This document shows, piece by piece, positions 4,468 to 29,992 of a stretch of DNA of 64,000 nt. Each line of letters begins with the position of its first letter. The stretch's first letter is position 1. A program made the translations under genes and the position numbers. The DNA comes from an uncultured Colwellia sp. (GTDB taxonomy: Bacteria > Pseudomonadota > Gammaproteobacteria > Enterobacterales > Alteromonadaceae). Where the stretch lies: NCBI GenBank assembly GCA_913058245.1, contig CAJXQJ010000002.1, positions 124,001 through 188,000 of the forward strand, read 5' to 3'. Under the pieces are notes generated by a model. It saw nothing but the letters and a program-made list of their open reading frames with translations, was not told the origin of the DNA and ran no database searches.

Positions 4468-5694
4468 ATGACAAGTACTGACAATTTTAACGATAAACGT
4501 CGCTTTATAATTCGTTTAGGCAAAGCCTTACATAAATTTGGCACCCCCGCATACCGACTTGAAGCGCATTTAACTAATGTCGCGCAAAGTTTAGGGGTTT
4601 ATAGCTCTTTTGTAATTACACCGACATCGTTAACTTTTATACTATCTCAAGACGATGAAAACCAAGACTATAATCATATACTTCGTGTAGCACCTGGCGA
4701 TTTGGATTTAGGATCATTGGCACGAGCCGATGAGCTAGTTGACGAGCTCACATCAGGTCAAAGAACCTTGGCCGAAGCCATAGAACGTTTAGATGATATT
4801 GCCAATAAACCAAGTCCTTATGGCCGTATATTAACTTTCCTTGCATTTGGTGCATCAAGTGGCGCATTTGCCATGCTAATGCAAACCAGTTGGAATGATG
4901 TTTTCTGGTCAACATTATTGGGCATGATGGTATGTTTATTTACTTTCTGGGCTGAGCGCTCACGTCGCGTTACCGACATGCTAGAGCCGATATCAGCACT
5001 TTCTTCTGCGTTTTTAGCATCTGCAATAGCACTAGTTGACCCCAGCATAAACATCCCTTTAGTCATATTATCTAGCATTATTGCCTTTATTCCTGGCTTA
5101 GCATTAACTTTAGGTTTATCTGAGTTAGCCGCTCGAAATTTAATGTCGGGTACGGCAAGGATCATGGATGCCATCATGATCCTATTCAAAATTTATTTTG
5201 GTGGTGTACTGGGTATCGCATTGGGGAAAATGCTCTGGGGTGAAGTTGTTTTTGTAGAGCCACCACATACGCCTGACTGGACGTTATGGGCTGCTGTTAC
5301 CACGCTTTCTATCAGCTTAGTTATATTATTTAAATGCCGAAAAAAAGATGCCCCTTGGGGGATCATTTCCGGCTATATTGCCTTTGGCGCAAGCATGCTA
5401 GGTGCTGAGTATCTAGGTGTTGCGTTGGGTGCTTTTGTCGGTGCCTTTGCTTTAGGTATTTACAGTAATATTTTTTCAAGATTAATGAAGCTACCTTCAA
5501 GTGTCGTTAAGTTACTTGGTTTGGTGGTACTAGTCCCGGGAAGTAAGGTTTATATTGGCTTAAATCATGCGGTATCAGGCCAAACGATGCTTAATGCAAC
5601 CGACATTGGCTCACAAGCCTTTCTAATATTTATGTCATTAGTGGCGGGGTTAATATTTGCCAATGTTGCACTGCCATCGAGAAAAACACTGTAA
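4468..5694 (+). CDS. Threonine/serine exporter family protein (ThrE-like)
   Basis: A 408-residue inner-membrane protein with both halves of the ThrE architecture. The first is a cytoplasmic N-terminal region (about 1-120, including GTPAYRLEAHLTNVAQSLGV) followed by five hydrophobic segments. The second is a C-terminal set of about five more segments ending near residue 404. Corynebacterial ThrE exports threonine and serine with the proton-motive force; many gammaproteobacteria split the two halves into separate genes, whereas here they are fused. The TetR gene starts 30 bp after its stop on the same strand and could be co-transcribed. The family is clear; the substrate is inferred. Confidence 0.88.
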   Translation: MTSTDNFNDKRRFIIRLGKALHKFGTPAYRLEAHLTNVAQSLGVYSSFVITPTSLTFILSQDDENQDYNHILRVAPGDLDLGSLARADELVDELTSGQRTLAEAIERLDDIANKPSPYGRILTFLAFGASSGAFAMLMQTSWNDVFWSTLLGMMVCLFTFWAERSRRVTDMLEPISALSSAFLASAIALVDPSINIPLVILSSIIAFIPGLALTLGLSELAARNLMSGTARIMDAIMILFKIYFGGVLGIALGKMLWGEVVFVEPPHTPDWTLWAAVTTLSISLVILFKCRKKDAPWGIISGYIAFGASMLGAEYLGVALGAFVGAFALGIYSNIFSRLMKLPSSVVKLLGLVVLVPGSKVYIGLNHAVSGQTMLNATDIGSQAFLIFMSLVAGLIFANVALPSRKTL

Positions 5695-5724
5695 TGAATA
5701 TTCTCATTTTTAGGCAGGTATTCA

Positions 5725-6339
5725 GTGGTAGCTAAAGCAAAATATCACCATGGTGATTTACGCAAATCCTTGATTTCTACCGCCAGTGAAATGGTAGCTG
5801 AGGCCGGTATTGAAAATTTATCATTGCGTAAGTTGGCCGAACGTATAGGTGTTTCTCGCACGGCAGCTTATCACCATTTTACCGATAAAAACGACCTACT
5901 ATGTGCAATTGCCGAACAAGGCTTTAGCCGTTGGCATCAACTATCTAGTGAAATATTCTCCCAGGAAAATATGTCTGATGAAGACAAGTACCGAAATTTC
6001 GTACACGCCTATATAGCTTTTGCTACGGAAAATCCGTCACTTTATGAACTGATGTTTGGACGAGTTATCTGGAAAGAGAATAATAGCACTGAAACATTGA
6101 AAAACATTGCCTATACCAGTTTCAATTATCAAGTAGAAATGACTAAGCTATGGCAAGAGCAAGGTATTATAAACGCCGAAGAAAACACGCTCAGGCTTGC
6201 ACAGGTATCTTGGGCAACATTACACGGCATTGCCAGATTAGTGATTGACGGCATTTACGCACAAGCAAACCAAATAGATGAAATGTCTGAATGTGCCGTT
6301 AACGTGTTTCTGGCGAATACAAAGTTAAGTAATAATTAA
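5725..6339 (+). CDS. TetR/AcrR family transcriptional regulator
   Basis: A 204-residue repressor-type protein. The N-terminal helix-turn-helix lies at about residues 8-55, with SLRKLAERIGVSRTAAYHHFTDKNDLL as the recognition region (positions about 30-56). The C-terminal half looks like a WHG-type ligand domain. It starts at GTG, preceded by AGGCAGG. It is followed after 20 bp by the PilZ-domain gene on the same strand. A TetR gene directly before a PilZ gene suggests one transcript, so this regulator probably adjusts a cyclic di-GMP response, but no operator palindrome was found at its promoter. Confidence 0.9.
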   Translation: MVAKAKYHHGDLRKSLISTASEMVAEAGIENLSLRKLAERIGVSRTAAYHHFTDKNDLLCAIAEQGFSRWHQLSSEIFSQENMSDEDKYRNFVHAYIAFATENPSLYELMFGRVIWKENNSTETLKNIAYTSFNYQVEMTKLWQEQGIINAEENTLRLAQVSWATLHGIARLVIDGIYAQANQIDEMSECAVNVFLANTKLSNN

Positions 6340-6359
6340 AGTAATTAAGGTGGTCAAGC

Positions 6360-6965
6360 ATGGAAACATCAGCAGATAAAACGAAATTAGCACAGTTTGA
6401 CGAATTTTTTTCAATTGATTATTACTTTAATATTAATGCCACAACACTTAATTCAGAAAATCTACCCAGTTATGAGCAATTTCTTAATGATATGCCAACG
6501 CCCTTTAAAATTGCCTCTGAAATAAATACCTTAGATCAAAGTGCATTACGCCCATTGCAAGCCGTAGCTGGTGTAGCAAGCCAATTAATGGAATACTTAA
6601 ACCATCAAGCACAAAAAATGGACTTACTAGTAGGCTACATACTTAGTCAACAAGACATGGCCAATGAACGCCAACAAGCAATTAAATTTGGCGGTGGTGG
6701 TGTTATATTTCAGTCTTCAAATGAACCTGCATTCGAGCTTGGTGAATACTTAAATTTAAAGCTATTTTTTACCGAAGAAAATAGTGCAGTATATTGCATA
6801 GGTGAAATAGTCAGTGTTGAAAAAAATACAGATGGGGCAACATATAAGGTAATTTTTCACCATATTCGAGAAGAAGACCGCGAAGCCTTAGTACGTAATA
6901 GCTTACATCAGCAATCTAAGCAATTACAGGCACTCGCCCAACAACGTAATCAAGAGAAAAATTAA
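6360..6965 (+). CDS. PilZ domain-containing protein
   Basis: A 201-residue cytoplasmic protein. The N-terminal half is helical and of unclear type. The C-terminal half (about 108-180) has the beta-rich PilZ pattern, with GGGGVIFQS and a preceding NERQQAIKF segment, where the conserved (D/N)xSxxG-type motif is degenerate. The fold assignment is therefore probable, while cyclic di-GMP binding is uncertain. AAGGTGG precedes the ATG. It lies 20 bp after the TetR gene and is closed by a strong terminator. Three cyclic di-GMP synthases elsewhere in the window give a plausible source of the signal. Confidence 0.72.
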   Translation: METSADKTKLAQFDEFFSIDYYFNINATTLNSENLPSYEQFLNDMPTPFKIASEINTLDQSALRPLQAVAGVASQLMEYLNHQAQKMDLLVGYILSQQDMANERQQAIKFGGGGVIFQSSNEPAFELGEYLNLKLFFTEENSAVYCIGEIVSVEKNTDGATYKVIFHHIREEDREALVRNSLHQQSKQLQALAQQRNQEKN

Positions 6966-6979
6966 TCCGCATTTATGAG

Positions 6980-7009
6980 CTAAGGTGCATTCCCGCATCT
7001 TAGTTTTTT
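6980..7009 (+). terminator. Intrinsic terminator after the TetR-PilZ pair
   Basis: The arms CTAAGGTGC and GCATCTTAG (9 bp with one G-U pair) and a 6-nt loop are followed by TTTTTT. Confidence 0.8.
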
Positions 7010-7160
7010 GCACGTGCTTTTAAAGTTAAAGTGCAATAACGAGTTCTAAACTCTTATACCCCCTTCCTCTATTCAGTTTACTAGCTTACATATGCTTACT
7101 TTGTAAAGACTTACTTATTGATACCGTATTTGACCTCACTTACCATCAATACAAGCACTT

Positions 7161-9245
7161 ATGCAGAGAACTTATCAACACCTAAAAAACTTAAGCTATA
7201 TCTCGTCATACCTAATCATCACCTCAGCAATTGCCAATGCTAATGAAGTGAGCTCAGAGAAAAACTTCAAAAAAAATCAATTGGAAAGCGACAAAAATGA
7301 AATAGAAGTTATTGAAGTAAACGGAAAACGCAATCAAGCTAATACCGAAATGACCGAAGAAACGGCAAAATTGTTAAGTGTTCCTAGTATTGCTAATGAT
7401 CCTCTTAGCTCAGTATTTAGTTTACCCGGCGTTGTTTACGCGGGTGGTGATGACGGAGAGCCAGCCATTCGCGGTTCCTCTCCTGACGACAACGCATTCT
7501 ACATTGATAACATGCCCGCTGATTACATTTTCCATTTATTTGGCGATAGCATATTTAACAAAAACGTCATTAGCGACTTCTCGCTCTATCCCGCAGGTTT
7601 TGGCAGTCAATATGGTAATGCAACTGGCGGTGTTTTTGATGTTAAATTACGAGATCCTCGCAACCAAGATATCACCACAATTGTTGATGCTAGTATGCTA
7701 AAAACGGGCATAATGATTGAAGGTGGGCTCGCAGAAGATCAGGCTTTTTATTTCTCATATAGACGTAGCCTATTGCACCTATTTCTAACAGAGGGTGAAG
7801 AAGATGATGGAGAAACAATCACTAAGTCGCCTATTAGTGATGACTATCAAGGCAAATATCAATGGTTAATTGGCGATAATCAAAAGCTCACTTTCAGTGT
7901 TACTGGTGCAAGTGACGTCGGAGCATTGAACATTTCTGCCGAGTCAGAATCGGCTAAAGTCGACCCTGACTCAATTGGTGAAATGTCTCTTAATACAAAA
8001 TTCGATCAACAAACCTTATCTTGGCAGTACTTCGCAGAAAATCACGATACATTCCAAATATCATTAGGGCACATGAATGAACAGAATAAACAAAAATATG
8101 GCCAGGGGCAATTTATTAACTTGGAAACAAAGCGCTTAAATTTACGCGCCTTATATCAAGCCAATTGGTTTGATGGTCATGTACAAAAAATTGGTGCTGA
8201 TTTTCAGCAAAGTGTCAGCGATTACAACTATGACATGATCCCTTATTTTTGTACTGACAATGACGCTGATTGTGAAAGTAAAAAAGGAGAAAGAGTACAA
8301 GATAACGATAAACTTAAAAGCACTGACAGTGCATTTTATTTCAACAATATTTGGAGCATTAACAACGACATAAAGTTAGATCTTGGTTTACGCGCAGAAA
8401 AAAACAACTACACAAATCAAAGCTTTGTTCACCCTAGGCTTGCCCTTAACTGGTTTCCTACCGATGAACTCACCATAACCACCAAATATGGTACTTATAG
8501 TCGCTTTCCTGATATCACCACCGCATTAAAAAAACTCGGAAACCCTAAAATAAAATCGCCGAAATCAAGCCATTATTCCATCGGATTTTCATACGATTTA
8601 AATGACACTTGGAACACTTCGGTAGATGTTTATTATAAAGACTTAAAAGACATGGCCTTATCATTACCTACTGATCACCCTGACTCAGCATCACACTATA
8701 GTGATGACTTATCAGGAAGTGCAAAAGGTGTTGAATGGGTAATTAACAAACACCTGTCTGATGGCTGGTATGGCTGGGCTTCTTTGAGTTGGTCAAAAAG
8801 CGAAAGAACTAATGACCTGACGAAAATAACTACTGAATACTATTTAGATACGCCATTACTAGCAAATGTTGTGGCAAATTATCAATTGAATGAGCAGTGG
8901 GATTTCGGCATGAAATTTACTATTCGCAGCGGGGCAAAATATACGCCTATTATTGGTTTACGTGAAAACCCAGATTACCCTGGATTTTTACAAGCAAGGT
9001 ATGGAGAGTTAAACTCAAAAACTCTTCCTGTGTATTATCGCTTAGACTTGCAAGCAAACTACAAAACAACCTTTTTCGGCTTAAAGTCAGAGGTCAACTT
9101 TGCCATTATTAACGCCTCAAATAGCTCGAACGTTTCCGGTTATTCTTACGAACCTAACGAGAATGACACCTTGAACAATTTCACGATAAAAAAGGATACT
9201 GGAATGGAAATGTTCCCCTCTATTGGTCTAACGGTACAATTTTAA
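7161..9245 (+). CDS. TonB-dependent outer-membrane receptor
   Basis: A 694-residue outer-membrane receptor. An N-terminal export signal (about 1-28, ending AIANA) is followed by a linker with a possible TonB box (EIEVIEVNG). Then comes a plug domain (about 65-165, with RGSSPDDNAFYIDNMP) and a 22-strand type barrel ending in a terminal Phe (GLTVQF). Such receptors import bulky substrates using TonB energy. No carboxypeptidase-like N-terminal extension is present. The following gene is a secreted alpha-amylase on the same strand after 293 bp, so import of maltodextrin or starch fragments is possible. That is inference from neighbourhood only; siderophore or peptide uptake is not excluded. Confidence 0.88.
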   Translation: MQRTYQHLKNLSYISSYLIITSAIANANEVSSEKNFKKNQLESDKNEIEVIEVNGKRNQANTEMTEETAKLLSVPSIANDPLSSVFSLPGVVYAGGDDGEPAIRGSSPDDNAFYIDNMPADYIFHLFGDSIFNKNVISDFSLYPAGFGSQYGNATGGVFDVKLRDPRNQDITTIVDASMLKTGIMIEGGLAEDQAFYFSYRRSLLHLFLTEGEEDDGETITKSPISDDYQGKYQWLIGDNQKLTFSVTGASDVGALNISAESESAKVDPDSIGEMSLNTKFDQQTLSWQYFAENHDTFQISLGHMNEQNKQKYGQGQFINLETKRLNLRALYQANWFDGHVQKIGADFQQSVSDYNYDMIPYFCTDNDADCESKKGERVQDNDKLKSTDSAFYFNNIWSINNDIKLDLGLRAEKNNYTNQSFVHPRLALNWFPTDELTITTKYGTYSRFPDITTALKKLGNPKIKSPKSSHYSIGFSYDLNDTWNTSVDVYYKDLKDMALSLPTDHPDSASHYSDDLSGSAKGVEWVINKHLSDGWYGWASLSWSKSERTNDLTKITTEYYLDTPLLANVVANYQLNEQWDFGMKFTIRSGAKYTPIIGLRENPDYPGFLQARYGELNSKTLPVYYRLDLQANYKTTFFGLKSEVNFAIINASNSSNVSGYSYEPNENDTLNNFTIKKDTGMEMFPSIGLTVQF

Positions 9246-9538
9246 CCTAATCATTTATACAGTTTTAACCATGGCCTCATTTTAATATGAGGTCAATAAA
9301 CACAAAAAAACAACGCTAAATGGTTTTACCCATTAAAAACTCACAATAATAGTTTCTGCAAACCAAATTCGACTCTTATTATGAATACGTATGCAGCTAT
9401 CTAGTTAATTTTTATTGCTTAATTTATGCTCAACTCACTCTTATCCCTGTTAACAAAATAGAAACACTCTATTCAAAGTAAATTAATAAAACCACCAATA
9501 ATAAATATAAAAATTAACCAGCAGTAAACGAGGAAAGC

Positions 9539-10951
9539 ATGAAACTAAAAACTACCATTAAAAAACTCACGCAAATATCAGCAATAGCAAGTACATTACT
9601 TTTTAGCCAAACTTCAGCGGCAGATACTATATTGCATGCTTTTAACTGGACCTATGACGACGTAGCCGCCAAAGCACAAGAAATTGCTGATTTAGGTTAT
9701 AAGAAAGTGCTTGTTTCTCCCGCTTACAAATCATCAGGTAACGAATGGTGGGCTCGCTACCAGCCACAAGATATTCGACTAATCCATAGCCCATTAGGCG
9801 ACACTAATGACTTTAAAGATATGGTCAATGCGTTAAAAGCCAAAGGCGTCGAAACCTATGCCGATATTGTATTTAATCATATGGCAAATGAATCATACAA
9901 ACGTTCAGATTTGAATTACCCAGGAACTGAAGTGCTAGCAGAGTATGCAGCCAACAGCACTTACTACAACTCAATTAAACTATTCGGTGATTTACAGCAT
10001 GGAAATTTAGGTGCGGGTGATTTTCATCCTGCAGGCTGTATTACCGACTGGGGTAACCCAGGTCACGTTCAATATTGGCGATTATGTGGGGGTAATGGCG
10101 ACGTAGGCTTACCGGATTTAGATCCTAACAACTGGGTGGTTTCTCAACAACAAGCGTACTTACAAGCATTAAAAACAATAGGTGTTACTGGTTTTCGCGT
10201 TGATGCCGCCAAACATATGAGTAATTATCATATTAACGCCGTATTTAATAACGACATAAAAAATGGTGTTCATGTTTTCGGTGAAATCATCACCTCTGGC
10301 GGCGCTGGTGATAATAGCTACGACAGCTTTCTCGCCCCTTACTTAAATGATACTGGTCACGACGCATATGATTTTCCACTATTTGCTTCACTTCGCGGTG
10401 CATTTGGTTTTGACGGTTCAATGAATCAGTTGGTTGATCCCGGCGCATACGGCCAAGCATTGGCAGGCGATAAAGCAGTAACGTTCTCAATTACCCATGA
10501 CATACCAACCAATGCAGGCTTTAGATATCAAATTCTTAATGCTACAGACGAAACCTTAGCCAATGCTTATATAATGGGGCGTGATGGCGGTACTCCGATG
10601 ATCTATTCTGATCACAATGAAAGTAATGATGGTAGCCGCTGGGTTGATTTATATAAACGCTCAGATATTGCCGGTATGGTTAAGTTCCACAATGCTGCAC
10701 AAGGTCATGGCATGCAAGTGATGAATTTTAACGACTGTATTATTTTATTCAAACGTGATCATATTGGTGTAGTCGGTATTAACAAATGTGACAGTGGTCA
10801 AGACGTATGGGTAAATACCGCCGAACATAACTTATGGTGGCACAAAAACTACCGTGACGTTGTTGAAGGTGTTGATGTACAAAACGTAAATAGCCAATGG
10901 CATAAGTTCTACTTACCAGGTCGTAAAGCAAGAATGTGGTTAATGGAATAA
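9539..10951 (+). CDS. Secreted alpha-amylase (GH13)
   Basis: A 470-residue glycoside hydrolase with a cleavable signal peptide (about 1-28, ending TSAA). It hydrolyses internal alpha-1,4 bonds of starch or glycogen. The GH13 motifs are in order: ADIVFNHM (region I), GFRVDAAKHM with nucleophile Asp222, VFGEI with acid/base Glu249, and THD with the stabilising Asp321. The usual Asn before that His-Asp (NHD) is replaced by Thr, as in some bacterial and animal-like amylases. A short beta-rich C-terminal domain follows. GAGGA lies 8 bp before the ATG. It is downstream of the TonB receptor and closed by a terminator. Activity is very likely. Confidence 0.94.
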   Translation: MKLKTTIKKLTQISAIASTLLFSQTSAADTILHAFNWTYDDVAAKAQEIADLGYKKVLVSPAYKSSGNEWWARYQPQDIRLIHSPLGDTNDFKDMVNALKAKGVETYADIVFNHMANESYKRSDLNYPGTEVLAEYAANSTYYNSIKLFGDLQHGNLGAGDFHPAGCITDWGNPGHVQYWRLCGGNGDVGLPDLDPNNWVVSQQQAYLQALKTIGVTGFRVDAAKHMSNYHINAVFNNDIKNGVHVFGEIITSGGAGDNSYDSFLAPYLNDTGHDAYDFPLFASLRGAFGFDGSMNQLVDPGAYGQALAGDKAVTFSITHDIPTNAGFRYQILNATDETLANAYIMGRDGGTPMIYSDHNESNDGSRWVDLYKRSDIAGMVKFHNAAQGHGMQVMNFNDCIILFKRDHIGVVGINKCDSGQDVWVNTAEHNLWWHKNYRDVVEGVDVQNVNSQWHKFYLPGRKARMWLME

Positions 10952-21276: not shown

Positions 21277-22770
21277 ATGGCTTCAACACAAGCTTTACCC
21301 GAATTTGATAATTTATGGGGGCATCCTAAACCATTATGGATGCTATTTATGGCAGAATTTTGGGAGCGTTTTGCTTTTTATGGTATTCGCTGGGCTTTAA
21401 CACTGTACATTGTTGCGCAGTTTTTTAATGGTGATACTTCGGGTCAGTCATTTGCATCAAATACCTATGGCGCATATTTAGCACTGGTTTATGCCAGCGC
21501 TATTTTCGGTGGCTATATTGCTGATAAGGTCATCGGCTCGCAACATTCAATTCTTGTTGGTGCAGTGATCATGGGAACCGGTTTATTTCTCATCATGCTG
21601 CCCGATGAAACTTTTTTTATGGTCGGCTTAGCAACAGTTATTGTTGGCAATGGTTTATTCAAACCTAATATTTCAAACTTGGTTGGCAAAATATATGCCG
21701 TAGATGATCACCGTCGAGACAGTGGCTTTAGTATTTTCTACATGGGTATCAATGCTGGCGCTATGGTGTCGCCTATTATTACTCAATGGCTTGCTAGTAC
21801 GTTAACCGATACGCCAATGATGGATAACTACAAAGCGGTATTCGGCGCGGCAGGAGTAGGCATGTTAATCAGTTATGTGTGGTTTTACATTGGTCGTCGT
21901 CAACTAAAAGGTATTGGCTCAGTAGCTAAAACACCTTTAAGAACAAAAAACCTTGTCTACGTTATTTTTGGTTCAGTCGCATCTATTGTCCCTGTTTATA
22001 TTTTAATGACCTATGCTGGCGCACAAGTGCTAGCGTGGATTTTATTTGTGCTATTTGCTGGTTTAGCAATGCTACTTTTAAAACAAGCTAAGCGTGATGG
22101 TAAAATAGCTTTCGATCGAGTTATTGCTTGCTTAATTATGTTCCTGTTCAATGTCATATTTTTTATGTTTTTCGAACAGGCTGGCAGTTCATTTACCTTT
22201 TTAGCGCAAAACATTGTTGATAGAAATATCACCGAAGCCGTCGAATTTAAAATTGCTTGGTTTCAGTCAGTTAACTCAGTCGCCATTTTAATATTTGCGC
22301 CAATAGTTTCAGCACTTTGGGTTTTTATGCATAAGAGAAAAGTCGAGCCGAGTATTCCACGTAAATTTGCCTTAGGCTTGCTCGGCACAGGTTTAGGTTT
22401 TTTAGTGTTAATTTACGCGCTTGAAAACCTACTAGATGCTAACAATATGATCCCAATTTGGCCGTTAGCCGCTTGCTATGTGTTGCACACGATTGGCGAG
22501 TTATGTTTATCACCTATTGGCTTATCTATGGTAAGTAAGTTAGTACCAGCTTCCCTTGCTGGCTTTGCATTTGGAGGCTGGTTTCTAAGTACCGCTATTG
22601 GTAATAACTTTTCAGGGATATTGGCAGGTTCAATGAGTGGTGAAACAGGAATGACAGTCGCCTCAGCATTAAGCGGCTTTTCATTTAGCTTTTGGTTATT
22701 GACCATAGGCGGTGCATTTTTATTTATTATTGGCCCACAAATAAATAAATTAATGCACGGTGTTAAGTAA
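21277..22770 (+). CDS. POT family proton-dependent oligopeptide transporter
   Basis: A 497-residue inner-membrane carrier with about 14 hydrophobic helices that takes up di- and tripeptides with protons. POT family signatures are present: EFWERFAFYGIRWALTLYIV with the proton-coupling ExxER-type motif (EFWERF) in helix 1, then GGYIADKVIGS, and the PTR2 segment FSIFYMGINAGAMVSPI. AEFWE here and ELCLSPIGLSMVSKL near the end match the DtpA-like branch. GAGGAAGGA precedes the ATG at 21277; a TTG three bases earlier is less likely. It is divergent from the winged-helix/TPR regulator, and a (TTTTAA)6 tract begins right after the stop. Confidence 0.93.
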   Translation: MASTQALPEFDNLWGHPKPLWMLFMAEFWERFAFYGIRWALTLYIVAQFFNGDTSGQSFASNTYGAYLALVYASAIFGGYIADKVIGSQHSILVGAVIMGTGLFLIMLPDETFFMVGLATVIVGNGLFKPNISNLVGKIYAVDDHRRDSGFSIFYMGINAGAMVSPIITQWLASTLTDTPMMDNYKAVFGAAGVGMLISYVWFYIGRRQLKGIGSVAKTPLRTKNLVYVIFGSVASIVPVYILMTYAGAQVLAWILFVLFAGLAMLLLKQAKRDGKIAFDRVIACLIMFLFNVIFFMFFEQAGSSFTFLAQNIVDRNITEAVEFKIAWFQSVNSVAILIFAPIVSALWVFMHKRKVEPSIPRKFALGLLGTGLGFLVLIYALENLLDANNMIPIWPLAACYVLHTIGELCLSPIGLSMVSKLVPASLAGFAFGGWFLSTAIGNNFSGILAGSMSGETGMTVASALSGFSFSFWLLTIGGAFLFIIGPQINKLMHGVK

Positions 22771-22806
22771 TTTTAATTTTAATTTTAATTTTAATTTTAA
22801 TTTTAA
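22771..22806. repeat. (TTTTAA)6 hexanucleotide tandem repeat
   Basis: Six perfect copies of TTTTAA begin on the base after the POT stop codon and end 11 bp before the terminator stem. Repeat number could vary by slippage. Confidence 0.95.
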
Positions 22807-22817
22807 TATGACAGGTT

Positions 22818-22843
22818 AAAGAGTTGCTGGCGCAACTCTTTTT
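22818..22843. terminator. Intrinsic terminator between POT and barrel genes
   Basis: A perfect 10-bp stem (AAAGAGTTGC with GCAACTCTTT) and a TGGC loop, with a T run on the plus strand. Confidence 0.85.
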
Positions 22844-22851
22844 ACTTACCA

Positions 22852-24081
22852 CTAGAAATAATATTCTATGGCTAATTGTGCGTGATCATCAGACTTCAAA
22901 CTGTACAATGCATCGCTTGGTTCGCTGCTTTGCATTACTCTAATATCTAAACTGATTTTTACACTTTCACCGAAACGTCGATTAGCTTCCATGATGAAAC
23001 TAAAAGCACTGTGCTCAACATCAGCGCCAAAACCAACCAGCATTTCACTACTTTGCATATCATTGAAGGCTAAACGACTACCAAAGAAAATATCATTTTG
23101 AATACTCGCACCGGAAGAGTTTTTATCTCCTTCGCCACGAGAGTCCCAGCCATATTCAACTAATAAACCTAAATCAGCATTCGTGTCAAAAACACCAACA
23201 TAAGTGTATTCAAAACCCGCTTGTGCTGCCCAAAAATCTTCATCATCAGTGGTGCGATAAATAGTTTCAAACTTCCATAACCAATCATCTATCGTCGCTT
23301 GCACATCAAGCCCTAACTGATCCATTTGGTTATAATGCTGCTGCAATGATGGCGAGCGGTCAGGCTCTGTTGTTGATAACGATAATATTGGATCACGATT
23401 AGTTCCGTGGAACCAGTAACTCCCTATATCAAAAACTCCGATTGAGTGACTCCAACGTGCAGCAAAGTCTAAATGCTTATCTTCAGCCGACGATTGATAA
23501 CTTACGTTTTTTGAATCAACAACTAATGGACCACGTAAGCGACCTTCTTTACCAACGAAAGTCCGTTCTCTAAAACCGGGCAATAAATATAAATCAACGA
23601 TCCCCCAATCACGTACAAATGATAAGTTAAGCATTAATTGTCCTAACTTATCCTCACCGTCGGTATCTTCAACACCATCAGTTTGATTAATAACATCAAC
23701 TAAATGTTGGAATTCTGTTACCCCCCAAAACTCTTTACGAATACCCGCTCTGAGCTCCCAGTCGCGACTTGCGTAAACATATGACAATTCACGAATATCA
23801 CCATGGCTTCGTTCAGCATCAAACTCATCGTATCTATAATATGGTTTGAAAGTTACGCTGCTATTGCCTTCATCCCACTCCCAGTAGAGCTCCGGCTCAA
23901 AAAATATAGAGGCTTGGCTGCGAGATAATTGGTTTTGGTATTGACTTTCTTCAGCAAAATAACGCTGTTCATAACCAACTTTCCCCGAAAGTTCAAACTC
24001 ATCTGCATTGACTTGCGGCTGCACTATGCTGTTTATGGCAAGAGCAACCAGCAATGGCTTTATTTTTTTAACGATACTCAT
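22852..24081 (-). CDS. Outer-membrane beta-barrel protein of the MMPL cassette
   Basis: A 409-residue protein with a signal peptide (about 1-26, ending VNADE), alternating aromatic strands throughout and a terminal Phe (LAIEYYF) as expected for BAM-inserted barrels. Strand-like segments such as PELYWEWDEGNSSVTFKPYYRY, WELRAGIRKEFWG and DIRVMQSSEP suggest a monomeric porin or export barrel, perhaps related to alginate-export or DUF1302-type barrels. It starts 6 bp after the LolA-like gene ends and is last in the operon. It probably gives the MMPL transporter an outer-membrane outlet or anchor. The role is inferred. Confidence 0.75.
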   Translation of the reverse strand: MSIVKKIKPLLVALAINSIVQPQVNADEFELSGKVGYEQRYFAEESQYQNQLSRSQASIFFEPELYWEWDEGNSSVTFKPYYRYDEFDAERSHGDIRELSYVYASRDWELRAGIRKEFWGVTEFQHLVDVINQTDGVEDTDGEDKLGQLMLNLSFVRDWGIVDLYLLPGFRERTFVGKEGRLRGPLVVDSKNVSYQSSAEDKHLDFAARWSHSIGVFDIGSYWFHGTNRDPILSLSTTEPDRSPSLQQHYNQMDQLGLDVQATIDDWLWKFETIYRTTDDEDFWAAQAGFEYTYVGVFDTNADLGLLVEYGWDSRGEGDKNSSGASIQNDIFFGSRLAFNDMQSSEMLVGFGADVEHSAFSFIMEANRRFGESVKISLDIRVMQSSEPSDALYSLKSDDHAQLAIEYYF

Positions 24082-24087
24082 TGTGAA

Positions 24088-24900
24088 TTATCGCGCACGC
24101 TTTAAGGTATTCTTGTTAAAGTCACCATCAACTAAACCGGTTTTAAACGTGTAGTTTTGCCACTGTAACTCTGTACTTTTACCACTTTGATGATTGATCA
24201 TTTCGGCTGAATCAGCGCGCCAGTATTTATCTAGGTACTGCTTGTAATTGCTGTATGACAGGGTTTTCAACAATGCATTTTTACGATCGTAAAAATCAAT
24301 TTTTTGCACGCGATACTCTGCTTTATCTAACCAGACGATGCGGCGCGTGTAACCCGAATTTTCATCAACAGGAAATTGCTCAACCATAAAGCTATCAAGA
24401 TCATTTACTACTTCATCACCCAAGTAGTTATAATTGTACTTTTCAATTTCAAACGAACTTAAATCTTCAAATGAAAATTCAGAGCCCATAAATGGACCTG
24501 ATTTATTTCTAGAGGATATACGTTTAACTCGTTTTAAAGACGGCAAATACAACCACTGGTCGTCATTACCGACAGCATGAGAGAAACTTAAAAATGATGT
24601 TCCTTTGACATCCCTAGGCTTATTAAAAATAGTTAAACTTTTATCACCATCATCAAGTAGTTCTAAGGTTTTAGTTTTAATTTCACGAATACTCTCTTGC
24701 CCTTGTTTATTACGCAGGCGCATGGTCATATCTGACGTATTATCGACCCAACCAATGTCTCGCGACTTTGCTTCTTTTGATATTTCTAAACCACGAGCTT
24801 GTGCACTAAGCTTTTCCTGTGTTTTAGCCAATATACTATGTGAGGCCATTACTAGTGCAAAGGTAGTAAAAAGGCCAACTGCTGTTTTTTTATTTAACAT
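24088..24900 (-). CDS. Outer membrane lipoprotein-sorting protein (LolA-like, periplasmic)
   Basis: A 270-residue protein with a signal peptide (about 1-25, ending ILA) and the LolA/LolB-like half-barrel of the family often named outer membrane lipoprotein-sorting protein. Typical segments are GTSFLSFSHAVGNDDQWLYLP, LKRVKRIS, GSEFSFEDLS and YRVQKIDFYDRK. These proteins usually sit next to MMPL/RND genes and are thought to carry lipids or lipid-linked cargo across the periplasm. GGAGAA precedes the ATG. It lies 21 bp after the transporter gene and 6 bp before the barrel gene, so all three form one operon. Confidence 0.85.
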   Translation of the reverse strand: MLNKKTAVGLFTTFALVMASHSILAKTQEKLSAQARGLEISKEAKSRDIGWVDNTSDMTMRLRNKQGQESIREIKTKTLELLDDGDKSLTIFNKPRDVKGTSFLSFSHAVGNDDQWLYLPSLKRVKRISSRNKSGPFMGSEFSFEDLSSFEIEKYNYNYLGDEVVNDLDSFMVEQFPVDENSGYTRRIVWLDKAEYRVQKIDFYDRKNALLKTLSYSNYKQYLDKYWRADSAEMINHQSGKSTELQWQNYTFKTGLVDGDFNKNTLKRAR

Positions 24901-24921
24901 AAATATTCTCCAAAAATTTAA

Positions 24922-27273
24922 TTAACTCGCCGTTGTATTCGGCGTTAGCTCAGTTGCTATAGGTGCATGTTCTGTGTTTTGACTGGTGAGTGACTTGTCT
25001 TTATCAAGAGCAATTAACAATGGTGGTAAGAAAAAGAAGTCAACGGCCAAGGCAATAAAGATAGTAATTGCGGTCAAGAGTCCCATATCAGCATTTAAGC
25101 TAAATGAAGATTGTGCTAACACGATAAAGCCAGCGGCTAATACGAAAGTTGTCGTCCAAAGGGCGCTACCAACATTGCTAAAAGCATAGTGAACTGCAGC
25201 TTTAGGTGCCGCTTTATTTTCACGACGAGCATGTAGATACTTACTTAGAAAATGCACAGTGTCATCAACAACAATACCAAGTGTCATACCAATAACGACT
25301 GATATACTCATACCGACTTGTCCTTCAATAAGCCCCCAAATACCAAAGGCAACCCCTGCCGGAATGAGGTTAGGTAATAAACTGATGGCTCCATAACGCC
25401 AGCTTTTCAGTGCGAAACCTAAAATAACTGAAATCAACAATAATGCTAACGTTGTACCAATAAGCATACTATTGATACTTCGTTGGCCAATATGTGCGAA
25501 CATTAGACTTGGACTAGCAATATCAATTTGGTATTGCGCTGCATTACTTTCAAACCAGGTATTAATTCTCTGCTCTAATTCCACTAACTCGTTACTTGTT
25601 AAATTTTTAAACGTCGCAACAAGCTTGGCAGATGATTTATCAACATTAAGTTGGTTATTTAAGTCAAGACCATAAGGTAAAGACATTTCATAAAGCAGAA
25701 GATATTGTGCTGCCATTTCTTGATCCGTTGGCAGCTTGTACCAGCTAGGATCATCAGCGTGCATATTCTTATTGAGGCGCTTAAGTGTGTCAGTGATAGT
25801 ATTCACATGATCTGTTTCAGGCTGTTGGCGGAGCCAGTCACTAAACTCAGCTAGATTACGTAAATATTCAGGGTTGTTAATGCCACTAGATATCCCTGTT
25901 TTTACTGAGATTTCCAATAAAGTCATACCCGACAAGTTAGCTTGCATAAAATCAGTAGCAACACGATAAGGAATAGACGTATCAAAATATTTAACGAAGT
26001 CATCGTTTAATTCGTTCTTTGGAATAAAGAGTGCCGATGCAATAATGATGACGCTAGTTAATGGCAGTAGCAGCTTTCTTTTTGCAATCACAAAGCCCGC
26101 TAATTTTGACATTTTATCACTTTGCCCTTCCGCTACAGGCTTCACTTTAATAGGTAATACCGCCAGTAATGCAGGGAAAATAGTAATAGCAAAAATAAAT
26201 GCCAGCATAACGCCCATAGCAACTAAATTTCCTAAATCATGAAATGGTGGTGAATCAGAAAAATTCATGCTTAAAAAGCCAATGGCGGTAGTAATACTGG
26301 TAATAAAAATAGGTTGAAAGTTCAATCGTATACTTTTTGCGATTGCTGACTTTTTATCGCTACCTTGGCGCATTTCATAAAACATGGTCGAAAGAATATG
26401 AATACAATCAGCGACAGCCAGCGTTAAAATCATCGTGGGCGCAGAAGAAGATGGCCCCGTTAGATAAAACCCCAACCAACCTGCTATTCCCATTGTGGTC
26501 GCAATACTTAAAATAATAACTAACACGGTAGCAAACGTGCCTGAAATAGTGCGTAGCATTAGTCCGATAAAGATTATGACAATGAGAAACATCAACGGAA
26601 CTAATGTCGCGCTGTCATTCATGGCGACTTCAGTAAAAGCACCGTTCATCATAACCATTCCCGACATATGAATTTCTGAGCCAGGATTATTTTTTAAGAA
26701 TTCAGCTGCCATGTTTTTAACAAAAGAAGAGACTTCATCCACTTCCGCTGTAGGGTCGATAGCCGGAAATTGCACACTGACATTAACAACAGAGACATGC
26801 CCTTCTGGTGAGATAATTTTATTAACTAATAAGGGTTCATTTATGGCAATGTTCTTTATTTTCTGCAGCTCTTGCTCAGTCAAACTGGTAGTATCCATGA
26901 CTAAGTCTTCAACTATCATGTCATCTTCTTCAGCATAGGTATGTTGAAAGTTTGTGACTGAATCTACTCTTGTAGAGTAAGGAACTTGCCAACTGGCCTT
27001 TGTTAACGTTTTTAGTGCAGCCAAATGTTCAGCGGTGAAAACATTGCCATTTTCGGGAACAACGACAAATGAAACATTGTCACTCTTGCTATATACTTTT
27101 TGCATTGACTCGTAAGCCACTAGCTGTGGATTATCTTCACCAAAAAATACTCGGTAATCACTTTTAAATACCAAATTTTGCGCACCTGACGCGGCGAAAA
27201 AGGCAATAGATAGGCTGACGAGAATAACCCAAATAGGATGTTTCTCGAAAAAGCCAAACAGTTTATCTTTCAT
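24922..27273 (-). CDS. MMPL/RND superfamily transporter
   Basis: A 783-residue inner-membrane protein with two repeats. Each has one helix, a large periplasmic loop (about 40-240 and 430-600) and five clustered helices. ADCIHILSTMFYEMRQG and VDDTVHFLSKYLHARRE are the paired sterol-sensing-like helices typical of predicted RND exporters of the MMPL/HpnN type. These move lipids or hydrophobic compounds from the inner membrane with the proton gradient. The frame opens earlier at a TTG inside the operator, but GGAG 5 bp before the ATG at 27273 decides the start. It is first in an operon with the LolA-like and barrel genes and is preceded by two copies of the TetR palindrome. Confidence 0.9.
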   Translation of the reverse strand: MKDKLFGFFEKHPIWVILVSLSIAFFAASGAQNLVFKSDYRVFFGEDNPQLVAYESMQKVYSKSDNVSFVVVPENGNVFTAEHLAALKTLTKASWQVPYSTRVDSVTNFQHTYAEEDDMIVEDLVMDTTSLTEQELQKIKNIAINEPLLVNKIISPEGHVSVVNVSVQFPAIDPTAEVDEVSSFVKNMAAEFLKNNPGSEIHMSGMVMMNGAFTEVAMNDSATLVPLMFLIVIIFIGLMLRTISGTFATVLVIILSIATTMGIAGWLGFYLTGPSSSAPTMILTLAVADCIHILSTMFYEMRQGSDKKSAIAKSIRLNFQPIFITSITTAIGFLSMNFSDSPPFHDLGNLVAMGVMLAFIFAITIFPALLAVLPIKVKPVAEGQSDKMSKLAGFVIAKRKLLLPLTSVIIIASALFIPKNELNDDFVKYFDTSIPYRVATDFMQANLSGMTLLEISVKTGISSGINNPEYLRNLAEFSDWLRQQPETDHVNTITDTLKRLNKNMHADDPSWYKLPTDQEMAAQYLLLYEMSLPYGLDLNNQLNVDKSSAKLVATFKNLTSNELVELEQRINTWFESNAAQYQIDIASPSLMFAHIGQRSINSMLIGTTLALLLISVILGFALKSWRYGAISLLPNLIPAGVAFGIWGLIEGQVGMSISVVIGMTLGIVVDDTVHFLSKYLHARRENKAAPKAAVHYAFSNVGSALWTTTFVLAAGFIVLAQSSFSLNADMGLLTAITIFIALAVDFFFLPPLLIALDKDKSLTSQNTEHAPIATELTPNTTAS

Positions 27274-27285
27274 GGTTTCTCCATT

Positions 27286-27300
27286 GTGACGAATCGTCAC
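27286..27300. promoter_or_regulatory. TetR-type operator, copy 1 (MMPL promoter)
   Basis: The perfect palindrome GTGACGA-A-TCGTCAC lies 13 bp upstream of the MMPL start codon. The same core occurs at 27353 and 28228. Confidence 0.8.
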
Positions 27301-27352
27301 CAATTACTGTAAAAAAACGATGCAAGCACCGATTAAAAAACACTCCCGATAA

Positions 27353-27365
27353 TGACGATTCGTCA
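27353..27365. promoter_or_regulatory. TetR-type operator, copy 2 (MMPL promoter)
   Basis: TGACGA-T-TCGTCA, the same core as the other two sites, lies in the 190-bp gap between the TetR and MMPL genes. Confidence 0.8.
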
Positions 27366-27464
27366 CTATCTAAGGATAAAAAAGCGGTATGCACTACCGC
27401 TTATAAAAACAAATAAATTCCAATTAAATCAAAAAATTAAAATTTAATAGAATCATTAATTTGT

Positions 27465-28241
27465 TTAGTTAAAATTAAATTCACGCCCCATTGATTTCAA
27501 TAAGGCTAGCTCACTTGGAAATACTAATGCGAGTGCTGATTTTAAAGATTGTTTATAGTCTTTTTCAGCAGAATATGGCACCCACTGCAGTCCGTCTAAT
27601 AATAAGTTTGTTTGATTAAACAGCTCTCTTTCTACAACTAGACCTGAACTTCCAGAACATTGTTCAACCTCTGACGATAATATAGAGATAACACCAAATG
27701 TTTGTGACCAAGTTGCAAAGCAAACTTGCTGAAGCGTCATATGCTTTGGAAGTACAAATTCTTTATTGGCGATAGCATCTTCAATAATACCAAATGTTGT
27801 TCCCATTACTTTCGCTTCTAACTGCTCTTGTTCTTGCAACCTCTTAGCACTGCATTTTCCATAGACATTTGGGCTTTTAGAACATTGCACACTCTTAAAT
27901 AGCGCGGGGTGAAGAATGGCATAAATTAAATTTGAAACATTTAATAGCAGCATCCGCGCTCTTGCACTACCTTGATACTGTGCTGCACGGTTAAATAAAT
28001 CATGCATAATAGTAATCGCTTGATTACCTATGGCTAATAGCAGATCTTCTTTACCAAGAAAGTGCTTATAAACGGTTCCTTTTGAATAGGAAACTGCAGC
28101 CACAACTTTATCTATGGTAATATTTTCTACACCATGCTTTTCAATCAATGCAATAGTTGCATCGATAATATCTTGTTCACGAGCTTTTAAGCTATGTTCA
28201 TCTAAAATTCTTGGAGTCATATCATTGTGACGATTCGTCAT
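27465..28241 (-). CDS. TetR/AcrR family repressor of the MMPL cassette
   Basis: A 258-residue regulator, longer than most TetR proteins. The helix-turn-helix is at about residues 15-62 (ITIDKVVAAVSYSKGTVYKHFLGKEDLLLAI), followed by a long ligand domain with several cysteines (FKSVQCSKSPNVYGKCS). It is on the same strand as and directly upstream of the transporter operon. The first ATG (28241) lies on an operator copy; the ATG at 28220 would put the operator just before the gene, as at the MMPL gene. Neither has a clear ribosome-binding site. Three identical palindromes around the two promoters argue for autoregulation and control of the cassette. Confidence 0.88.
   Translation of the reverse strand: MTNRHNDMTPRILDEHSLKAREQDIIDATIALIEKHGVENITIDKVVAAVSYSKGTVYKHFLGKEDLLLAIGNQAITIMHDLFNRAAQYQGSARARMLLLNVSNLIYAILHPALFKSVQCSKSPNVYGKCSAKRLQEQEQLEAKVMGTTFGIIEDAIANKEFVLPKHMTLQQVCFATWSQTFGVISILSSEVEQCSGSSGLVVERELFNQTNLLLDGLQWVPYSAEKDYKQSLKSALALVFPSELALLKSMGREFNFN
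28228..28240. promoter_or_regulatory. TetR-type operator, copy 3 (own promoter)
   Basis: TGACGA-T-TCGTCA overlaps the first possible codons of the repressor gene. The flanking CATTG and AATTA also match the copy at 27286. Confidence 0.8.
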
Positions 28242-28580
28242 TAATTAAACAAATGATAGGTTGTTATAATAATTTGTCAATAGTTACCTTAAAATTTAAA
28301 GTGGCCTTTAAGTTTAGCCAGTTAGCCTAACGTACGCAGATCATTCATTGGATTGAACCTTTATCGTATAAATTGCAAGCATACTACTTTGAACCGCAAA
28401 AATTATTGCTTTAGTTAACTAAAGCAAACAGTTAGTTGAAATTAATTATTGTATCAACTGCAAAGCAAGGCTTTCAGCTCAAAATATGTACCTAAAACCG
28501 ATCCAGCTTCATTAGAAACGATCTAGCTCTATACTGGAATGATCACAAATAATAACAAAAAATGCTCACCTAGCCTTTGC
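28242..28580. other. Divergent intergenic region between two TetR genes
   Basis: No coding frame is supported. It holds a perfect 22-bp palindrome (28406-28427) and two similar motifs 20 bp apart, CCGATCCAGCT (28498) and ACGATCTAGCT (28518). It must contain the promoters of both outward-facing regulator genes. Confidence 0.6.
28406..28427. promoter_or_regulatory. Perfect 22-bp palindrome, possible operator
   Basis: The half-site TTGCTTTAGTT is followed directly by its exact reverse complement, with GTTAAC at the centre. It differs from both TetR palindromes nearby, has no T run, and lies between divergent promoters. Confidence 0.55.
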
Positions 28581-28600
28581 AACCGACCTAACGGTCGGTT
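28581..28600. promoter_or_regulatory. TetR-type operator at promoter of the MlaC-linked regulator
   Basis: The arms AACCGACC and GGTCGGTT are separated by TAAC, 41 bp before the regulator's ATG. It shares the ACCGA/TCGGT core with the palindrome at 29304. Confidence 0.75.
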
Positions 28601-28641
28601 AAACTTTAGATATTAAAGGCTACAGTTTTTTGAGATTTTAA

Positions 28642-29226
28642 ATGAGAGACGCAGAGCAAACACGGCAGAAAATACTAGAAGTTAGTGCTGATGAAATTCA
28701 TAAACATGGTTTCACCGCAACGAGCTTATCGTGTATTTTAAAACGTTGTGAAATATCAAAAGGTGCTTTGTATCATCATTTCTCAAATAAAATGGAGCTT
28801 GGCTATGCGGTATTTGAAGAAGTATACGCACCTGCATTTATTTCACTTTGGCAGCCGCCAGTAGAATCTGAAGACCCGATTCAAGGTTTATGTGATTTTT
28901 TCAGCTCAATGTCGAAAGAAATGAGCTGTGATGAAGTGGTTTGTGGCTGTCCACTTAATAACCTATGCCAGGAAATGTCTGGCGTTGATGAAGGCTTTCG
29001 CATTCGCATTCTAGCAATGCAACAACAATTAAATTTATTAATTGCCACAAACTTGCTGCGCGTAAGTGACACCTTAAAAGCTAATTTAGATTTTAGCCAA
29101 GTCGCATATTTTATTGTTTCTACTTTCCATGGTTCGTCAAGCTTAAGCAAGAGTTCACTTAACAAAGAGCTGTTCGATAAAGTCATTAAAGAGCTGTGCC
29201 GCTATTTACACGATTTAAGAAAATAA
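28642..29226 (+). CDS. TetR/AcrR family regulator linked to orphan mlaC
   Basis: A 194-residue protein. Residues about 5-50 carry the helix-turn-helix (TATSLSCILKRCEISKGALYHHFSNKMELGYAVFEE). The C-terminal part resembles the TetR_C_6/YcdC-like ligand domains, with CGCPLNNLCQEM giving a cluster of three cysteines that might sense oxidants or electrophiles. Its promoter has a palindrome with ACCGA/TCGGT core, and the promoter of the next gene (mlaC-like, 157 bp downstream, same strand) has a closely related one. Autoregulation plus control of the neighbour is therefore likely. Confidence 0.88.
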   Translation: MRDAEQTRQKILEVSADEIHKHGFTATSLSCILKRCEISKGALYHHFSNKMELGYAVFEEVYAPAFISLWQPPVESEDPIQGLCDFFSSMSKEMSCDEVVCGCPLNNLCQEMSGVDEGFRIRILAMQQQLNLLIATNLLRVSDTLKANLDFSQVAYFIVSTFHGSSSLSKSSLNKELFDKVIKELCRYLHDLRK

Positions 29227-29303
29227 CTTTAATTACACGCATTCGACCTTCCGGGTAACAATTCTTAACACTTTATCTTCTATTATAGCGTTAAAAGCAA
29301 TTT

Positions 29304-29325
29304 ACATACCGAGCGGTCGGTATGT
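29304..29325. promoter_or_regulatory. TetR-type operator at promoter of the mlaC-like gene
   Basis: The arms ACATACCGA and TCGGTATGT, perfect complements, are separated by GCGG, 58 bp upstream of the ATG. The core matches the site at 28581. Confidence 0.78.
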
Positions 29326-29383
29326 ATAATACAGCAATTGAAAATATCAACTATAATTTAATTTTAGCCAGACAAGGGTCCCC

Positions 29384-29992
29384 ATGAAAAAGTTTCTTCT
29401 ACTTGTTATATTACTTACCAGTTTTATACAGAACAGCTTTGCAGCTAACGATGTTGCATCTCCATATCAAGTAATAGAAGTTACGGGTAATAAGCTTTTT
29501 ACAAAAATTGCTGATAACCAAGAAGCGTTAAAAAAATTCCCTGAATTAATGCGTGATATTGTAGAGGCTGAGCTTATGCCTGCAATCGATTATCGCTACG
29601 CATCATTTAAAATTTTAGGTAAACACTTAAGAAAATCTACAAAAGAGCAAAGAGCTAAATTTGTAGCAGCTATGCGTTCTTATTTGGTACGAACATATGC
29701 TAGCGCGTTAACGCAATACCATAACCAAAAAGTATTATTTGAACCGGGCACTAAGTTAAAGCCAAAGGCTAAATCTGCATCTGTTGATGTAAAAATTGTT
29801 GATGACGGCAAGCCTGATATTAAAATTACTTTTCAAATGCGTAAGGATAAGAAGTCTCAGCAATGGAAAGCTTACGACATGATCGTTGAGGGTATTTCAT
29901 TAGTTAGCAGTAAACAGGCTGAGTTTAACAGAAAGATATCAGACTTAGGTATCGACCAAGTAACGTTAGAATTAGCATCTATCGCTAAGTAA
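29384..29992 (+). CDS. MlaC/Ttg2D family periplasmic phospholipid-binding protein (orphan)
   Basis: A 202-residue protein with a signal peptide (about 1-20, ending SFA). The mature part matches the MlaC fold: an N-terminal helical domain (YQVIEVTGNKLFTKIADN, then AIDYRYASFKILGKHLRKST and RSYLVRTYASALTQY) and a beta sheet (SVDVKIVDDGKPDIKITFQM, then WKAYDMIVEGISLVS). MlaC ferries phospholipids between outer- and inner-membrane complexes. Here no mlaD, mlaE, mlaF or mlaB is nearby, so it is an extra copy under TetR control. It could instead serve the adjacent MMPL cassette, which is inference. Confidence 0.87.
   Translation: MKKFLLLVILLTSFIQNSFAANDVASPYQVIEVTGNKLFTKIADNQEALKKFPELMRDIVEAELMPAIDYRYASFKILGKHLRKSTKEQRAKFVAAMRSYLVRTYASALTQYHNQKVLFEPGTKLKPKAKSASVDVKIVDDGKPDIKITFQMRKDKKSQQWKAYDMIVEGISLVSSKQAEFNRKISDLGIDQVTLELASIAK

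Follow-up and report, generated by a model that had tools for sequence, protein, structure and literature searches.

A TetR-linked pump, LolA-like carrier and outer-membrane barrel of an uncultured Colwellia as a candidate export route for hydrophobic compounds

The cassette and its described counterparts

Several described transport systems resemble in general design the gene set considered here, namely four genes (tetR, MMPL, LolA-like and barrel) occupying positions 22852 to 28220 of a 64,000-nucleotide stretch of contig CAJXQJ010000002.1 from an uncultured Colwellia sp. (the whole stretch is referred to below as the window). AmeABCD of Castellaniella defragrans performs efflux of apolar monoterpenes, export being supported by a deletion strain, and unites in one cassette an HAE3-type RND pump, a periplasmic protein of the LolA superfamily (DUF1329) and an outer-membrane barrel (PMC6394551). 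The TOL_3187/TOL_3188 system of Thalassolituus oleivorans places MMPL and LolA-like parts beside a porin-like protein, free of conserved domains according to its authors, and is up-regulated on C28 alkane (PMC6304351). In Pseudomonas putida, a DUF1302 barrel, a DUF1329 carrier and an efflux-type transporter (PP_0765/0766 and PP_2018/2019) are joined by a shared phenotype, growth on Tween 20, but they are divided between two loci and include an extra periplasmic protein (PMC10866462). For ApeLMN of the E. coli aryl polyene cluster, an RND transporter and a LolA-like chaperone are proposed to bring an acyl-type lipid to the outer membrane; this cluster is biosynthetic, its transport function is itself a proposal, and it includes LolB-like ApeN, no barrel being named (PMC8253772). 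FarE/FarR of Staphylococcus aureus, likened here by description, combines a TetR protein with the efflux pump that it regulates, which acts on an antimicrobial fatty acid, and, the host being Gram-positive, has no outer-membrane part (PMC10019231, PMC12671165). No paper treating a cassette of the window type was recognised in the literature searched, most subscription journals lying outside that search. Systems of this general kind, with an HAE3 pump, a LolA/DUF1329 carrier and a barrel, are already known from AmeABCD and others, and what is new here is the barrel family, a defined operator and three TetR classes found beside the cassette.

The genes and operators are arranged as follows.

22852..24081, minus strand: barrel, outer-membrane beta-barrel of 409 amino acids, predicted AlgE/OprD-type fold
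24088..24900, minus strand: LolA-like, periplasmic LolA-like carrier of 270 amino acids (PF17131 LolA_like, weaker DUF1329), including the stretch SRNKSGPFMGSEF
24922..27273, minus strand: MMPL, MMPL/HAE3-type RND inner-membrane transporter of 783 amino acids from ATG
27465..28220, minus strand: tetR, TetR-family regulator of about 251 amino acids from the probable start 28220
27287..27299: operator 1, TGACGAATCGTCA, 26 nt before the MMPL start
27353..27365: operator 2, TGACGATTCGTCA, 92 nt before the MMPL start
28228..28240: operator 3, TGACGATTCGTCA, 20 nt before the probable tetR start

We read this cassette as a TetR-repressed, ligand-inducible and self-contained exporter of a hydrophobic acyl-type compound, and assign to this reading a probability of roughly 0.58; the computed basis consists of gene order, the operators, their conservation together with TetR, linkage of the three transport genes (hereafter, the triad) and fold resemblance. 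In the absence of ligand, a TetR dimer would occupy the three operators, placed at the promoter regions of tetR itself and the MMPL operon, and an accumulating compound would bind TetR, freeing both promoter regions. The MMPL/RND pump, presumably driven by proton flow, would then take the compound out of the inner membrane and hand it over to the LolA-like protein, which would ferry it across the periplasm to the AlgE-like barrel, and the latter would pass it into or through the outer membrane. The cargo may be a fatty acid or ester, a hydrocarbon or a polyketide-like lipid.

Transcription order on the minus strand is tetR, MMPL, LolA-like, barrel, and the tight operon with gaps of 21 bp (MMPL/LolA-like) and 6 bp (LolA-like/barrel) described in the first-pass annotation is borne out by the coordinates. 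Its tetR start at 28241 needs correction: the start is probably the ATG at 28220, since 28241 would put operator 3 inside the gene and the TetR proteins of relatives L059-L061, L060 being from Pseudoalteromonas denitrificans, begin with MTPRILDE. For the transporter, the start chosen by the open reading frame (ORF) tool, a TTG at 27303, runs through an operator, and the ATG at 27273 is likelier.

A palindrome accompanying the TetR gene

The pattern TGACGA-N-TCGTCA has exactly three copies in the assembly searched (2,958,532 bases, 67% complete), every one at the cassette; allowing two or fewer mismatches, the window contains 5 matches compared with a mean of 1.13 over 100 shuffles, none of which reaches 5. 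Three identical operators had been annotated previously, and all three are present, although the first begins at 27287 instead of 27286, and identity extends over the outer bases and not over the central one, which on the plus strand reads A in operator 1 and T in operators 2 and 3.

Comparison with relatives covered 27 loci carrying a TetR of the window class, from which L069 was dropped as a part of the same contig as L059, leaving 26 distinct loci including that of the window. A site with one or no mismatch is located upstream of tetR or MMPL in all 26 (of tetR in 25, of MMPL in 20, of both in 19), and no such site occurs in the next 4 kb of these loci. The pre-MMPL site is missing from L062, L088, L093, L094, L102 and L113, and in L093, L094 and L113 tetR and MMPL overlap or are 12 bp apart; L077 has no site before the called (extended) tetR ORF and two one-mismatch sites just before the aligned tetR. 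Outside the order, L233 carries an 11/12 site before tetR, bringing the count to 27/27 distinct loci overall. The palindrome accompanies the TetR gene over identities to the window protein from 23 to 100%, which speaks for the first-pass annotation as far as its condition that TetR should bind the palindrome can be judged from sequence. Conversely, the site is found in 0/35 fetched MMPL loci lacking a window-class TetR (order-level, Alphaproteobacterial and plasmid loci, 600 bp upstream searched), of which at least three, L063, L068 and L112, being at contig edges, hardly test the matter. The 30 MMPL loci of the class sample all lack the site within 700 bp, that of L233 lying further up, before tetR. 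Over 61 pooled sites, T-G-A-C-G on either side is nearly invariant and the centre is A or T. Since the site is conserved with the TetR gene (27/27 against 0/35), the palindrome is a phylogenetic footprint, which provides strong evidence that TetR of the window class reads it.

The palindrome as the sign of a wider regulon was considered and rejected, there being no further exact site in the assembly, while scattered sites in relatives look like chance. In total, 43 exact places were found in 26/118 genomes of the order sample, 30 of them within about 5 kb of a barrel match (the three of the window included). From the remaining 13, 12 were inspected and 10 of these lie inside called ORFs, for which reason copies away from barrels look accidental; the thirteenth (G034) is about 7 kb from a barrel. 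Across the class, 16/369 genomes contain the exact pattern with A or T at the centre, and among the barrel matches listed only the window's sites are within 10 kb. Near cassettes outside the order, the window operator was found at none but L233.

At 91 loci (one duplicate included), the same-strand gene immediately preceding MMPL was classified, giving 27 cases of the window TetR class, 10 of an LmrA/YxaF-like TetR (TetR_C_13) and 12 of a TetR_C_27 type, the domain names being taken from four sampled proteins; at the other 42 the neighbor is something else or a contig edge. Judging by these neighbors, one and the same cassette seems to have acquired regulators from different TetR families. Three TetR classes in this position at different loci are in keeping with an inducible pump, for which this is common. 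Palindromes of the other two classes, sought by a narrow rule, appear at only a few loci.

The second TetR gene adjoining the cassette (28642-29226, LmrA/YxaF-like) was also tried as its regulator and rejected, being a core gene beside MlaC in the genus with palindromes (28582-28599 and about 29304-29325) only around itself and before the MlaC-like gene. It is present in 17/17 same-genus genomes with at least 87% identity, accompanied by the MlaC-like gene in 16/16 relatives and by an acylase in 13/16 (1.5 kb fetched). The MlaC-like gene (29384-29992) forms part of a second circuit (window 28582-29992) unrelated to the cassette. This TetR family adjoins cassettes elsewhere: the core of the palindrome at about 29304-29325 recurs ahead of MMPL in L106, where the TetR has 43% identity, and the class seems to control an MlaC-type carrier here and the MMPL cassette in L106.

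Linkage, predicted folds and genomic setting

Relatives of the barrel are present in 49/118 genomes of the order sample, the window's included, and of 54 LolA-like places scoring over 200 bits, 49 have a neighboring barrel match no more than about 1.4 kb off, the five without it being G044:C106, G100, G059:C17, G057:C12 and G076. Counted by profiles on six frames, the full MMPL-LolA-barrel triad is found at 45/55 relative loci (all barrel loci of the order sample other than the window's), at 9/10 loci of the GTDB scan, which include Motiliproteus and Alphaproteobacteria (L065-L068), and at 30/39 class-sample loci, this last figure representing no random sample because the 39 fetched places are mostly the best-scoring ones. 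Of the 104 loci, a total in which L059/L069 on a single contig is counted twice, 84 contain the triad, 7 the barrel with the LolA-like gene only, and 13 the barrel alone, the latter including the decayed gene L111 and some loci near contig ends. Across the class, barrel profile matches are found in 131/369 genomes, that is, in about a third. The first-pass annotation had agreed to fall if the barrel were absent or unlinked in most relatives; linkage in most of them was found.

One might suppose that the barrel is simply a co-transcribed neighbor standing outside the transport path, as the five LolA-like places without an adjoining barrel and the 13 barrel loci with neither MMPL nor LolA-like gene by the profiles used would allow. 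This is nevertheless improbable given that the order MMPL-LolA-barrel on one strand is kept at 83/104 loci (44 relative, 9 GTDB-scan and 30 class-sample ones), the Alphaproteobacterial L065-L068 among them.

Some loci deserve separate mention. L111 (G045:C1 near 590100-590737) is a decayed barrel gene with pieces 77-82% identical and internal stops, and profiles detected no MMPL or LolA-like gene nearby. L119, L120 and L121 (G117, G096 and G071) share a barrel of about 30% identity to the window's within a conserved neighborhood lacking pump and carrier. In L146 (NZ_CP118497.1, Pseudoalteromonas rhizosphaerae) the triad, with its barrel inverted, is carried by a plasmid of 24 kb in the vicinity of gamma-mobile-trio genes and an IS1182 transposase, and because of this copy the triad may travel with mobile elements. 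The genome of the window itself contains a second MMPL-LolA-barrel operon (L133, G000:C13:58000-72000, positions 5574-10331), whose barrel of 462 amino acids is weakly DUF1302 and whose LolA-like protein has relatives in most same-genus genomes.

As to the proteins, TetR matches Pfam TetR_N (E 1.9e-12), and the pump matches Pfam MMPL (E 9.4e-33) with a sterol-sensing stretch (E 2.7e-7); its best NCBIfam match is TIGR00921 (HAE3; E 7.2e-46, 156.6 bits, under the cut-off of 351.9), and by sequence it resembles MmpL4/5 and, more weakly, HpnN. The carrier matches Pfam LolA_like (E 1.3e-62, 211 bits) and DUF1329 (E 2.9e-11, 43.7 bits, over the cut-off of 23.1), its model (mean predicted local distance difference test, pLDDT, 68.5) resembles 3bk5 of Vibrio parahaemolyticus, P. 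gingivalis LolA3 and a DUF1329 protein, and in the Foldseek alignment it is 60% identical to 3bk5. The LolA-type fold might suggest sorting of lipoproteins or outer-membrane proteins, the barrel itself being the exported protein, a possibility that was raised by the authors of the TOL_3187/3188 study with respect to TOL_3188 (PMC6304351). For the window cassette such a role is highly improbable: no LolCDE or LolB-type partner is encoded in the operon, which alone was inspected for it, and the related LolA3 of P. gingivalis binds the receptor LolB weakly (PMC13103446).

The window barrel has no match in Pfam or NCBIfam at E 1, AlgE-type families such as PF13372 included for Pfam, and no solved chain similar by sequence. 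Its AlphaFold2 model built on 11 sequences (mean pLDDT 77.3) finds as best structural match AlgE 5d5d (Z 21.9, root-mean-square deviation 3.6, 299 residues aligned), followed by OccAB3 5dl7 of the OprD/Occ channels (Z 21.6), so the protein models as an AlgE/OprD-type fold, AlgE being an alginate exporter. Porins of the AlgE and OprD-Occ kinds have 18 strands. The stretch FWGVTE..HLVDVINQTD..ED.DGEDKLGQ is conserved across the 11 aligned sequences, but much less so in a more distant set of 15 that also contains the window barrel; it is situated between strands 109-117 and 148-157, where model confidence is low, and from this position it could be a loop folding into the pore. DUF1302 gives no match in any of the 11 members of this set (A1, window included), the Pfam scan of which returned only odd and weak hits (WDR93 at 0.16 in two, Phenol_MetA_deg at 0.0016 in one). 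Membership in DUF1302 was tried by profile comparison (E 0.0038-0.017) and rejected because an AlgE-family control scored about alike (0.0095); the alignment with DUF1302 displays a shared WG..E..N..D pattern. In the wider set A3, 2/15 barrels match DUF1302, L133 (E 2.5e-4, below the cut-off) and L136 (E 4.7e-17), which also match singly, and a loose tie to DUF1302 may be retained through them. For the window barrel and its ten relatives, Pfam offers no fitting family, and on this sequence ground the barrel family is unnamed.

Set beside AmeABCD by description and not by direct sequence comparison, as was done for the TOL system as well, the cassette differs in its barrel, which in AmeABCD is DUF1302 within a 605-amino-acid protein, and in the second periplasmic protein AmeC, the window operon having no further gene (PMC6394551). 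Membership in the AmeABCD type therefore fails on these two parts, whereas by analogy the cassette likely works like AmeABCD. In TOL_3187/3188, MMPL and LolA-like domains belong to one protein and in the window they are separate (PMC6304351); the fused layout recurs in L136 (G059:C11, 5868-10359), where MMPL and LolA-like parts form one protein of 1057 amino acids followed by the DUF1302 barrel. Neither a membrane fusion protein nor a TolC-type duct is encoded in the window operon, the search for them being confined to it.

The setting of the cassette includes the following additional features.

22779..28551: accessory block, missing from the equivalent place in same-genus relative G013
22818..22841: hairpin where the barrel and POT transporter genes converge, possibly terminating transcription from both sides, noted by eye and not in the motif scan
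27382..27402, minus strand: terminator-like hairpin after tetR that would split tetR from the MMPL operon (consensus match only)
28253..28280, minus strand: promoter-like TTGACA-16-TATCAT (11/12), ending 12 bp before operator 3 (consensus match only)

The region contains 8 terminator-like matches against a shuffle mean of 4.0 and 15 promoter-like matches, not above the shuffle mean of 20.1. In the interval separating operators 2 and 1, positions 27318-27331 of the minus strand form a short stem that resembles a terminator and has a run of T; it may be an attenuator or a chance occurrence. The cassette is flanked by a transporter gene ending at 22770, labelled POT-type by eye without family search, and by the second tetR starting at 28642; GC content makes no step at the cassette.

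Within the genus, the barrel is present in 2/17 genomes, that of the window and G014, in which cassette and second TetR are on separate contigs. In genome G013 (L251) the match to the window breaks off after 22778 and picks up at 28552, these positions being 12 bases apart there, and in G010 (L260) matches end at 22770 and resume at 28469; the far flank was reached in these two genomes and not in the other 14. Hence cassette and tetR are absent from G013 and G010 as one block and are accessory in the genus, and either gain here or loss in the relatives may account for this. Such patchy distribution, along with TetR control, would suit a stress module, namely a broad detoxification pump for foreign hydrophobic compounds such as terpenes, solvents or antimicrobial fatty acids, for which AmeABCD (monoterpenes, PMC6394551) and FarE/FarR (linoleic acid, PMC10019231, PMC12671165) serve as precedents. 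The wide spread of the barrel (131/369) and the triads in biosynthetic operons described below suggest a more dedicated cargo, leaving general detoxification possible but doubtful; since it is a sub-case of export, its odds overlap with those of the other explanations.

Direction of transport and meaning of the triad

The same parts could operate inward, and uptake is the main reading opposite to export: the barrel would be an entry pore for a hydrophobic nutrient such as a long-chain alkane, a wax or a fatty ester, and the carrier would feed the inner-membrane protein. Growth on Tween 20 requires PP_0765/0766, whose function is correlated with PP_2018/2019 (PMC10866462), a role in alkane passage is proposed by the authors for TOL_3187/3188, which rise on C28 alkane (PMC6304351), and an acyl-CoA dehydrogenase adjoins the cassette in 9 loci, 7 times beside MMPL, although only one of the nine is named by Pfam and such neighbors may reflect a shared inherited gene order. 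AmeABCD, equipped with an HAE3 pump, acted in contrast as an exporter in Nile Red and tolerance assays (PMC6394551), and paralogous triads reside inside biosynthetic operons; uptake is thus unlikely.

The operons in question contain genes that may indicate the cargo. In L123 (G037), aminotransferase, AMP-binding ligase, acyl carrier protein, flavin oxidoreductase, MMPL, LolA-like, barrel and phosphopantetheinyl transferase genes follow each other on one strand with small gaps. L116 (G040) comprises ketoacyl synthase, MMPL, fatty-acid desaturase, two Pfam-less proteins, LolA-like, barrel and type III polyketide synthase. A plasmid of Sulfitobacter sp. DSM 110093 carries a reducing type I polyketide synthase, MMPL, LolA-like, galE and barrel, with two condensation-domain proteins upstream of the triad, and in L245 a thioesterase is inserted between LolA-like and barrel. 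These four are striking cases among more than 100 loci, most cassettes being without such a neighbor. Export is favored because distant paralogous triads sit in fatty-acyl and polyketide biosynthetic operons, and by analogy this, together with the acyl-CoA dehydrogenase neighbors, favors an acyl-chain or polyketide cargo moving outward.

Several observations weigh against an exporter of this kind. The triad parts can separate, as follows from the 13/104 loci having the barrel with neither partner and the 7/104 having it with the LolA-like gene only; no biosynthetic gene stands alongside the window's own cassette; the window barrel shares only 27-39% identity with those of the biosynthetic paralogues, so their cargo may differ from its cargo. 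Hydrophobic-substrate growth (Tween 20) and C28 alkane induction in the analogous systems fit uptake as well, and model confidence for carrier and barrel is middling. The complete path from inner to outer membrane proposed in the first-pass annotation fits the folds, although a barrel beside MMPL/LolA-like pairs already had precedent (PMC6394551, PMC6304351); altogether, its observation is confirmed and its interpretation partly supported.

A broader and tentative proposal, to which we give rather less than even odds, is that the triad serves Gammaproteobacteria, and some Alphaproteobacteria, as a widespread lipid-export pathway that has no name yet. In it, a LolA-like shuttle would connect an MMPL pump with a barrel of a new AlgE-like family, marked in the window's subfamily by the near-invariant loop FWGVTE..HLVDIINQTD..ED.DGEDKLGQ, and the whole would work in the absence of a membrane fusion protein or TolC. 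As a plug-in, the triad would be used either by itself, with one of several TetR repressors in control, or within biosynthetic operons of the fatty-acyl and polyketide kinds, whose neighboring genes name the cargo. The crossing of periplasm and outer membrane by lipids and oily products is a largely open question, and the barrel, present in about one third of the sampled genomes of the class, is yet without a fitting Pfam family. The operator offers a ready reporter, the ligand that lifts TetR being probably the cargo or its signal, and the biosynthetic paralogues (L116, L123 and the Sulfitobacter plasmid) supply chemically testable cargo candidates.

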